NCBI GenBank assembly: GCA_027067965.1
Contig: JAMOUV010000004.1
Span: 62,001-126,000, forward strand
Source: Flavobacteriales bacterium
GTDB lineage: Bacteria; Bacteroidota; Bacteroidia; Flavobacteriales; Flavobacteriaceae
DNA: 64,000 nucleotides
Direction: 5' to 3'
Shown piece after piece: positions 49,176-50,893 of this stretch. The notes under the pieces were generated by a model. The model saw only the letters and a program-made list of their open reading frames with translations, was not told where the DNA came from and ran no database searches. Numbering within the stretch: position 1 is the first letter of the stretch; every line of letters begins with the position of its first letter. The position numbers and the translations under genes were made by a program.

Positions 49176-49240
49176 AGATAAATAATACTTCCTCTACTTT
49201 TTATTATTAATTTAAACTTTCCTATACCAAAATAAATGTA

Positions 49241-49270
49241 ATATTATTCGGTCATTTCTTTTATGCCCTC
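49241..49270. repeat. 30-bp direct repeat, distal copy
   Basis: This block matches 49740-49769 at 29 of 30 positions (26 identical in a row, 49245-49270). It repeats the last codons of the DUF4296 gene, including a stop in the same frame: TAA here against TAG in the gene. The spacing between copies is 499 bases, and the two copies bracket the structured element. Confidence 0.9.
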
Positions 49271-49739
49271 CTGTTTTAGCCATCAGGACACCCAAATTAA
49301 ATTATTTATCTTTTGAACGAGATTTTTACCTAAAATTTTATATTCATTTTCCTAACAAGTATTTTCTTTTGTTCTTTTGTCTTGATACAAAAGAACCATC
49401 CACAGGATCCCTTTGGGAAAAGATCAAGGCAAAAATATGCTTCATCGCGCTCTGACCCGCCGGGAGAAAATCTAGCAAAAGACGAATTTCCTTCGGAAAT
49501 AGATGACAAGCACTTTTGCTGATTTTCTATCCCGGCGTGCCATTCACAGCCAACACCCGGCCCGCATTTTTGCCGGGCCAGCCCTCCTTCCGCCTGACGG
49601 CGGACTTTGAAAAATTTCTATATGTGGGAAAGGAGTGAGAATAAAAGATTCTGAGACACCCAAAAATACCAAAAATTAATTATAATTCGCTTTAAATCAT
49701 CATATTTTTTTTGGCTTAAAAAAGTGGCAAAAAAAGGAA
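49271..49739. repeat. Hairpin-rich non-coding element between direct repeats
   Basis: About 470 bp contain no gene but at least five inverted repeats. (1) 49371-49380 with 49387-49396, a perfect 10-bp stem whose loop CTTGAT is complementary to ATCAAG at 49423-49428, allowing a pseudoknot. (2) 49458-49481 with 49513-49537, about 22 paired bases with two small bulges. (3) 49486-49491 with 49495-49500, nested inside it. (4) 49556-49561 with 49572-49577. (5) 49589-49594 with 49599-49604. The centre is clearly more GC-rich than its surroundings. From memory, similar blocks with TCTTGATACAAAAG and a later ATCAAGGC occur between genes in other Bacteroidota. Confidence 0.75.
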
Positions 49740-49769
49740 ATACTATTCGGTCATTTCTTTTATGCCCTC
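49740..49769. repeat. 30-bp direct repeat, gene-proximal copy
   Basis: Copy of 49241-49270 with one difference (C at 49743). Bases 49743-49769 are the coding end and stop codon of the DUF4296 gene. Confidence 0.9.
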
Positions 49770-50171
49770 AAAAAATGATTTTTTTTCTTTCTTGTCTTTC
49801 TTGTCTTTTTTGGGCCGGGGCACTTGATAAATTTTATCCATGGAATCCAGTTTGCGTTTGATGTCGGATTCGATTTTTTTATAAATTTCCATAAACGTTT
49901 CGGGGCGGTCCAAATAATAATTCAAGGATTCGTAAAAAATCGTGCTATCGATACCGTGTTTCTTAAAAACACTTCGTGACAAATCGACCTCCAAACTGTC
50001 AATTTCTTTTTTCTTTCGGGTATAAAGTTCATTGGCAAATAACAAATCTTCGATAACCGCCCGCATTTGTTCTTCTTCGAGCACTTGAGCGGGTTTCTTA
50101 TTTTCCGATGTGCATGAAACGGAAAACAGCGATAGAATTCCCATCAAAAAGAAAATTATATAATGCTTCAT
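49743..50171 (-). CDS. DUF4296 family lipoprotein
   Basis: This 142-residue lipoprotein has the lipobox FSVSC (Cys20) and the DUF4296 core: QMRAVIEDLLFANELY, then FKKHGIDSTIFYESLNYYLDRPE. A lysine-rich tail (KKDKKDKKEKK) precedes the end GIKEMTE. ATG 50171 shares bases with the stop of the glycosyltransferase gene (ATGA), so the two are coupled; the reading from 50195 is not needed. The last nine codons are duplicated about 500 bases downstream. DUF4296 next to a polyprenol-phosphate mannosyltransferase is a usual Bacteroidota neighbourhood. Function is unknown. Confidence 0.88.
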   Translation of the reverse strand: MKHYIIFFLMGILSLFSVSCTSENKKPAQVLEEEQMRAVIEDLLFANELYTRKKKEIDSLEVDLSRSVFKKHGIDSTIFYESLNYYLDRPETFMEIYKKIESDIKRKLDSMDKIYQVPRPKKDKKDKKEKKSFFEGIKEMTE

Positions 50172-50893
50172 AATTTGCCCCACATATTTTTCCATTTTAA
50201 CTTCAAAACGCCTAAAATTCCTTCCCTCACTATGCCGCCCGTCATCTTCGAGACCCCTTTTTGGCGATTTATAAAGATAATGGGAATTTCTTTAATGCAG
50301 AAACCCTTTTTCCAAGCCCGGTATTTCATTTCGATTTGAAATCCGTAGCCCACGAAATGAATTTTATCAAAATTCAAAGCATTTAACACTTCGCGTCGAT
50401 AACCGACAAATCCCGCCGTGGTGTCTTTGATATGTATGCCCGTAATCAATCGCACGTAAACCGAAGCAAAATAAGAAAGAATCACGCGAGACAGCGGCCA
50501 ATTGACCACATTTACGCCGCTGATATATCGCGACCCGATAACCATATCGCATTGTTCGTCGCGCAAAACGGACAATAAACGGGGCAAATCCGCAGGATTG
50601 TGCGACAAATCCGCGTCCATCTCGAAAATGTATTGATAATCATGACTTAAGGCCCATTTAAAACCACTCACATACGCCTTTCCAAGCCCTTCTTTTTTTT
50701 CGCGAATCAAAAGATGCAAGCGACCGGGAAATTTTTGTTGCAACCGTTTCACTATTTCCGCCGTGCCGTCGGGAGAACTGTCATCGACTACCAAAATATC
50801 GAAGGCCTCTTCCAACGAAAATACCGAATCAATAACATCGCCGATATTTTCGGCTTCATTGTATGTGGGTATGATTACCAATGCATCACCCAT
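50168..50893 (-). CDS. Polyprenol monophosphomannose synthase-like glycosyltransferase (GT2)
   Basis: This 241-residue soluble GT2 enzyme is of the dolichyl-phosphate mannosyltransferase type: LVIIPTYNEAENI, the metal-binding DADLSHNP near residue 93-100, GSRYISGV and RQKGVSKMTG at the end. It should transfer mannose or another hexose from a nucleotide sugar to a lipid phosphate at the membrane, as donor for envelope glycans or glycoproteins. It follows tyrS by 4 bases and overlaps the DUF4296 start. Confidence 0.92.
   Translation of the reverse strand: MGDALVIIPTYNEAENIGDVIDSVFSLEEAFDILVVDDSSPDGTAEIVKRLQQKFPGRLHLLIREKKEGLGKAYVSGFKWALSHDYQYIFEMDADLSHNPADLPRLLSVLRDEQCDMVIGSRYISGVNVVNWPLSRVILSYFASVYVRLITGIHIKDTTAGFVGYRREVLNALNFDKIHFVGYGFQIEMKYRAWKKGFCIKEIPIIFINRQKGVSKMTGGIVREGILGVLKLKWKNMWGKL

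Follow-up and report, generated by a model that had tools for sequence, protein, structure and literature searches.

A putative IS1634-family MITE carrying a pseudoknotted, RNA-like module at the end of a DUF4296 gene

The odd duplicated gene end at 49240-49769 of the window (the whole stretch of 64,000 nt that was analysed) can be explained as the trace left by a type of transposon that makes long and variable duplications. Taken as a whole, the interval is very probably a MITE of the IS1634 family which was mobilised in trans, duplicated 31 bp of its target and carries a structured, RNA-like cargo. An IS1634 MITE is in itself a known kind of element; the new part is the pseudoknot cargo, which is flanked by unrelated ends in different elements and is widespread outside the genus. 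With a confidence slightly short of even, we tentatively read this core as an undescribed, Bacteroidota-wide RNA with two linked pseudoknots, a swappable and hitch-hiking cargo with a selected function of its own, whose carriers are elements with unrelated ends (the IS1634 type and the GAATTAGGCGC type) and, in other lineages, a recurrent neighbour gene. If the module is active as RNA, it would be an RNA cargo that is mobile and has been selected for a role, and Taishania pollutisoli CZZ-1 is a named strain that carries it.

The element and its IS1634-type relatives

The direct repeat comprises 31 nt with one mismatch (49240-49270 and 49739-49769), and a longer alignment pairs 49230-49270 with 49729-49769 (repeat family of 41 nt, 90%). 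Across the 64-kb window it is the sole pair of 30-mers having at most one mismatch and lying 30-1000 nt apart, and none of the 20 windows shuffled in two-base blocks had any such pair. The preliminary description of this DNA had reported a 30-bp repeat with one mismatch, which is here refined to 31 nt and found to be unique in the window. Since the DUF4296 gene (49743-50195; Pfam PF14129, 59 bits) is read from the minus strand, its authentic end is the copy at 49740-49769, and the copy at 49241-49270 is additional. This agrees with the earlier assignment of the former to the end of DUF4296 (TAG) and of the latter to a duplicate (TAA). The gene-side copy of the target-site duplication (49739-49769) holds the last codons and the stop TAG of DUF4296; the far copy (49240-49270), which runs in frame to TAA, is a mere duplicate, and no strand is assigned to either. 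The interior had also been called gene-free, and the ORF list indeed contains no credible gene inside the repeat interval, only short overlapping frames.

Between the two copies lies the whole mobile element (49270-49737, minus strand, 468 bp), the left end of which adjoins the DUF4296 gene. Its border is uncertain by one base, as 49270, shared by the far copy of the repeat and the element end, is assignable to either. The left terminal inverted repeat is CCTTTTTTTGCCACTTTT (49720-49737, minus strand), and the right one (49270-49282) reads CCTGTTTTAGCCA on the plus strand, with 0 mismatches to CCTGTTTTNGCCA. A left subterminal motif, GGGTGTCTC (49653-49661, minus strand), stands 76 nt from the left end, and a right motif, GGGTGTCC (49286-49293, minus strand), starts 24 nt from the right end. 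The window's own genome (G000, 2.05 Mb in 33 contigs) has two full transposase-free copies and one that is core-only; the second full copy, at 93%, is found at G000:C33:65292-65765, and the core-only copy, at 84%, at G000:C32:67901-68139. This second full copy, L002, has the inverted ends CCTGTTTTCGCCA...TGGCGAAAACAGG and the subterminal motif GGGTATCCC at 80 nt from its left end. Compared to these, the ends of the window copy are slightly decayed, with two changes in the left end.

Nine genomes of the genus were searched with the profile NF033559 (IS1634 transposase), which matched in G002 and G003, one of the two above the cut-off. The transposase of G003 is a fragment inside which the contig starts, and its score of 79 bits is below the cut-off of 100. 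Upstream of it are CCTGTTTTCGCCACTTTT and GGGTGTCCC, and the stretch preceding its start codon reads CCTGTTTTCGCCACTTTT...GGGTGTCCCAG. The end bases of this IS are identical to those of copy L002 at 18/18 positions and to those of the window copy at 16/18. The IS1634 transposase of G002 (P0001) is an unlikely parent, as no such right end follows it. When 299 genomes of the family were searched with the G003 fragment (E <= 1e-15), two matched. Four complete IS1634-type ISs were found in G148, two of which were scanned (363.5 and 363.8 bits; cut-off 100), and one complete IS in G273. In the ISs of these two genomes, the distance of the GGGTG motif from the nearest end is 79 nt on the left and 24 nt on the right, the positions for G148 being computed on one copy. 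Overall, the related left motif is found at 79 nt in three of three IS1634-type ISs and the right motif at 24 nt in both of those with a right end, compared to 76 and 24 nt in the window copy. As no match to PF01609 or NF033559 was found for a parent transposase in the G000 assembly, the window element may be a fossil that is now immobile.

In its passages on these elements, the 2008 review of the IS4 group (PMC2266710) gives ends of the form C-----YT and typical duplications of 5-6 bp for IS1634. For IS1549 and IS1634 the same passages give long variable duplications of 8-514 bp, without a mechanistic model, so that long duplications are an exception within the family as it is treated there. 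The window element is similar to IS1549 and IS1634 in that its ends fit C-----YT and that it too has long variable target duplications, to judge by those passages (PMC2266710), and it has the same end layout as the IS1634-type ISs found in this analysis. In contrast to the ISs of the family, it has no transposase gene, is 468 bp instead of about 1.66 kb long, and holds a structured module instead. Because of the shared ends, the GGGTG spacing and the long variable duplications, the element is filed here, on sequence comparison, as a non-autonomous MITE of the IS1634 family. In the passages on it that we cite (PMC9769881), MITECca01 of Cardinium, a Bacteroidota endosymbiont, is likewise a short, IS-derived and transposase-free element that was spread by its parent IS; it differs in that it is derived from IS982 and is about 240 bp long, and those passages describe no structured cargo.

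Architecture of the structured core

The core extends over 49367-49607 on the minus strand, where model R1 scores 236 bits (this copy being among those used to build R1). The structure of the core, supported by covariation, was drawn on one alignment row (L090). All of its parts are given for the minus strand. The P1 hairpin TCCGCC/GGCGGA (49589-49604) forms helix 1, with 6 of 7 pairs invariant in the genus. The P2 hairpin (49559-49579) forms helix 2, and its loop GGCAAAAAT at 49566-49574 can pair with a strand J according to the pseudoknot test below. The long middle hairpin (49454-49543, helices 3-5) has a strongly covarying stem, in which 8 of the 11 basal pairs are changed on both sides; it is missing in copy L091. 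The bridging strand ATTTTTGCCTTGAT (49423-49436) contains both J (ATTTTTGCC), which pairs with the P2 loop, and CTTGAT, which pairs with the loop of the last hairpin, as supported by covariation and by the pseudoknot test. This terminal hairpin, GTTCTTTTGT-ATCAAG-ACAAAAGAAC (49371-49396, helices 6 and 7), forms an H-type pseudoknot with CTTGAT.

The covariation alignment consisted of 13 of the 17 complete cores from four genomes of the genus, the rows of which are related. Copies L084 2986, L085 9650 and L103 were left out for their other middle part and L091 for having no middle hairpin. Over the 62 named pairs of these 13 cores, 97.9% of the cells are paired and 17 pairs are changed on both sides. 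The covariation score is 0.224, compared to 0.084 for shuffled alignments and at most 0.064 for slid ones, and further pair types are not above shuffles (60 of 500 reach the observed value).

The pairing of the P2 loop with J was spotted by eye first and was then tested on covariance-model hits. The 46 hits of this test, 1 from the genus and 45 from outside, were chosen among the best matches and are a subset of 49, from which two L213 rows (a repeat of L209) and L244 765-908 were left out. The P2/J pseudoknot is kept, with at least 8 of 9 pairs Watson-Crick, in 22 of the 46 selected hits, which comprise 16 distinct strand pairs. In these, a P2 loop forms 8-9 Watson-Crick pairs of 9 with its own J, whereas the mean of the cross pairs is 4.47 and 18 of 240 cross pairs reach 8. 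Shuffles of J equal the real pairing in 0 to 3.6% of trials over the 22 hits, except for L210 (12.6%). The pseudoknot is absent in the other 24 of the 46 selected hits, most of which still keep the terminal hairpin, and for this reason the terminal hairpin seems to be a module of its own. The weak-match loci L212, L216, L217, L218 and L219 are outside the test set, and no clear P2/J pair was seen by eye in the first four of them. A 6/6 partner for the terminal-hairpin strand is present in 41 of the 46 selected hits. The six pairs CTTGAT/ATCAAG are invariant within the genus and variable outside of it, where we listed, by design partly from full matches only, the variants CTTGAA/TTCAAG, CTTGAC/GTCAAG, CTTTGA/TCAAAG and CTTGGC/GCCAAG. 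Compensatory change is therefore present in both pseudoknots.

Folding of the interior beats that of shuffles on both strands, with z values of -3.00 and -3.66 and 0 of 100 shuffles equal on each strand. This, together with the fact that the core lives in DNA transposons, would suit a core that works as a single-stranded DNA signal in replication, recombination or transposition, and not as RNA, which we regard as an unlikely but serious reading. On the modelled strand, however, G.U pairs outnumber A.C pairs (10 vs 3 cells, 6 vs 3 pairs), and this small excess weakly favours an RNA of that strand. With RNA as the presumed working form, a structured module of about 220 nt with two linked pseudoknots would have replaced the transposase gene of the IS. 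The module would then be a cargo that works at the 3' ends of genes, either as an RNA itself or on RNA, e.g. by stabilising or insulating the 3' end so that such insertions are tolerated. This particular role is possible but less likely than not.

A second core subtype, with a longer, different middle and an altered bridging strand, was seen in L086, L085 9650-9965, L084 2986-3303 and L103 1572-1885; in most of these, the middle part reads GAATACGCAATGACA.../...GTGTCATTGCGTATC.

The BOX elements of pneumococcus and the Correia/NEMIS elements are, like the window element, modular, structured and dispersed intergenic mini-elements. They belong to other phyla and have other ends, and we know of no double pseudoknot in them of the kind found in the window core.

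Carriers and distribution of the core

In eight copies of the genus, the core lies between GAATTAGGCGC-type inverted repeats (type B). A flush 12-bp duplication is present in just two of the eight, L097 (12/12) and L107 (11/12), and the GAATTAGGCGC type is on that account less securely a transposon than the IS1634 type. The remaining type-B copies have short repeats near the border or none accepted by the script; the 18-nt repeat of L103 is not flush. In the short type-B copies L109 and L114, only remnants of a decayed core are left (17-18 bits), and L062 has a diverged core inside. Copies L086 and L087 have one end of each type and no duplication above chance, as expected of recombinants. Cores without recognised MITE ends are found in L003 and L093. 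As a separate observation, the core in L089 457-678 and L092 4355-4574 is flanked by repeats of 112-113 nt and has ends of neither type; these are perhaps further transposon types.

A core that is mobile by itself, i.e. a REP-like or hairpin element which was inserted into several MITEs and whose duplication would be the two GGGTGTCC repeats, appears improbable to us. It would account for L175, a core-less MITE of IS1634 type with a single GGGTGTCCCG and no model match, and for the cores without recognised MITE ends (L003, L093) and beyond the genus. However, the GGGTG repeats are part of the IS ends, as core-less ISs have them at the same spacing. L175 is also explicable as a deletion between the GGGTG repeats, and the short type-B copies, with their decayed remnants, do not count as core-less. 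Outside the genus, moreover, no constant duplication was found around the core at the 15 places examined, two of which have direct repeats clearly above shuffles: L209, where the repeat is a neighbouring copy, and L210, where a pair of 40 nt does not adjoin the core.

The model search matched 59 of 149 genomes of the family at E <= 0.001 and 52 of 395 genomes of the phylum at E <= 1e-6, in both cases with the own genome included, and a good part of these matches are the terminal module alone. Carriers outside the genus include Taishania pollutisoli (Flavobacteriales, 110.7 bits) and Flavobacteriales UBA5422 (125 bits), and a bin labelled Ignavibacteriaceae has a core-model match of 43.9 bits. 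By eye, the core or terminal module of these three carriers follows the end of what is seemingly the same small gene (L150 1172-1374 and 6385-6564, L122 560-776, and L138 5430-5703 on the minus strand) and is itself followed by a similar non-coding stretch. As judged by eye, this would be either a phylum-crossing transfer or a contaminated bin. The same element family is carried by the MAG JAADEB (contigs L120, L124, L128 and others), whose title, Chlorobiota, looks wrong.

In some genomes of the family, the terminal pseudoknot hairpin occurs in clusters of the same orientation, a few hundred to a few thousand bases apart (L189 1836-3196, L188, L187). Cassette arrays, which were suspected from these clusters, seem less likely: no cassette order was seen when the ORFs of two clusters were read, and the strict motif was found in only one of the four clusters searched. 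Upstream genes point toward the core in 22 of 27 copies, which we selected ourselves and in which ORFs of at least 90 aa were crudely called. Since the mirror count is 16 of 27, there is no clear orientation bias between the core and its neighbours.

The structured module, which keeps its two pseudoknots by compensatory change far beyond the genus, has no Rfam match: a search of the 64-kb window with Rfam release 15 at gathering score gave 0 matches, and three sub-threshold matches are far below the gathering scores. The tRNA/tmRNA search gave nothing for the core. In 10 core loci, Rfam gave three matches to Flavo-1, none of them over the core. Flavo-1 RNA (RF01705) is a structured RNA of Bacteroidota, as is proposed for the core, but it does not match the core. 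In these three of the 10 loci, the Flavo-1 RNA (L150 1976-2052, L209 1787-1856 and L215 440-530) is no more than about 1 kb away from a core or terminal module. The viral collection contained 0 exact matches to the 23-letter pattern of the bridging strand. We found no description of the element in the open-access literature of PMC; an undeposited motif, in Weinberg 2010 (PMC2864571) or elsewhere, may conceivably overlap the core.

Origin of the duplicated gene end

The element was searched for in 40 genomes, five of which matched: the own genome, G001, G002 and G005 of the same genus, and G015. The end match in G015 (L057) is taken as chance because it lies before an ordinary gene. A search of the plasmid collection gave just a 25-nt match in six Leptospira records, also taken as chance. 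Duplications were surveyed in 23 of the 35 distinct copies, namely those having 150 nt or more of sequence to either side. The four copies of the genus having both IS1634-type ends and both flanks show duplications of 31, 88, 83 and 38 nt. The direct repeat that flanks copy L002 has 88 nt, is identical at 86/88 and is unrelated to the repeat of the window; the copy with 38 nt has a decayed right end and a repeat that is identical at 35/38. By our reading, the duplicated stretch covers a gene end in three of the four copies, and the fourth lies between divergent gene starts. A fifth insertion site, the halves of which are in G001 and G005, has a matching flank of 92 nt (90 identical) and 17 extra bases before the element. 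In the truncated element L183 (G005:C62:5686), the IS1634-type right end is followed by the terminal hairpin alone. The transposase-bearing ISs of G148 and G273 have flush, 100% identical duplications of 325, 131 and 93 bp, which adds clean cases of 93-325 bp in the bacterial family of the window.

Because the copies differ in both the length and the sequence of their repeats, the repeat is read from these comparisons as a target-site duplication of transposition, with no fixed attachment site. In the proposed mechanism, an IS1634-type transposase acting in trans would recognise the CCTG...CAGG inverted repeats together with the GGGTG motifs, which lie about 76-79 nt inside the left end and 24 nt inside the right one. 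A widely staggered cut at the end of DUF4296 would then duplicate 31 bp of the target site, among them the stop and the nine codons before it, such that the gene would keep its own end after the insertion. The IS would have been lost later from the own genome.

The preliminary description had compared the insertion to elements that restore tRNA or gene ends. Such a site-specific, att-type element, inserted by an integrase at a gene 3' end with the repeat as gene-restoring att core, is very improbable here. The repeat does cover the gene end, and the repeats of the copies at folP-like and valS-like gene ends also span the stop codon (the neighbour-gene names folP, valS, recG and queG were assigned by eye). 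However, instead of a constant attachment core, the repeats have 31-88 nt and are unrelated in sequence between copies, one copy sits between two gene starts, and the inverted ends are common to the element and the IS1634-type ISs. As the IS1634 family is known for the peculiarity of long and variable duplications, the gene end was most probably copied by transposition and not restored in the att manner. The alternative named in the preliminary description, in which the gene end was duplicated in tandem and the sequence in between then decayed, is hardly tenable: it would fit two nearly identical repeat copies and an interior without a credible gene, but this interior has covarying structure. 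It also shares 93% identity with the second full copy, which lies at an unrelated site between other flanks, has inverted ends and is bordered by a different duplication of its own.

With transposition of a MITE as the preferred reading, the sister copies and the covariation support the earlier proposal that a non-autonomous mobile element was inserted here; its structured core is conserved, and it has copies elsewhere. The interior would have been dismissed as drift if it had no other copies; it recurs as a dispersed repeat in the same genome. The check for empty sites in relatives of the DUF4296 gene gave no close empty site. In five other genomes of the genus, neither the core (best other match 6.8 bits, E 0.58) nor the 30-mer repeat (0/5) was found at these relatives, but they are only 34-37% identical and too distant for proof of an empty site.

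Two further IS duplications, of 281 and 156 bp, match across two copies with swapped flanks. These copies, L201 and L204 (G148:C1:2056628 and 2014367), are in opposite orientation, and the swapping of flanks between them suggests that the approximately 42 kb in between were inverted by recombination.
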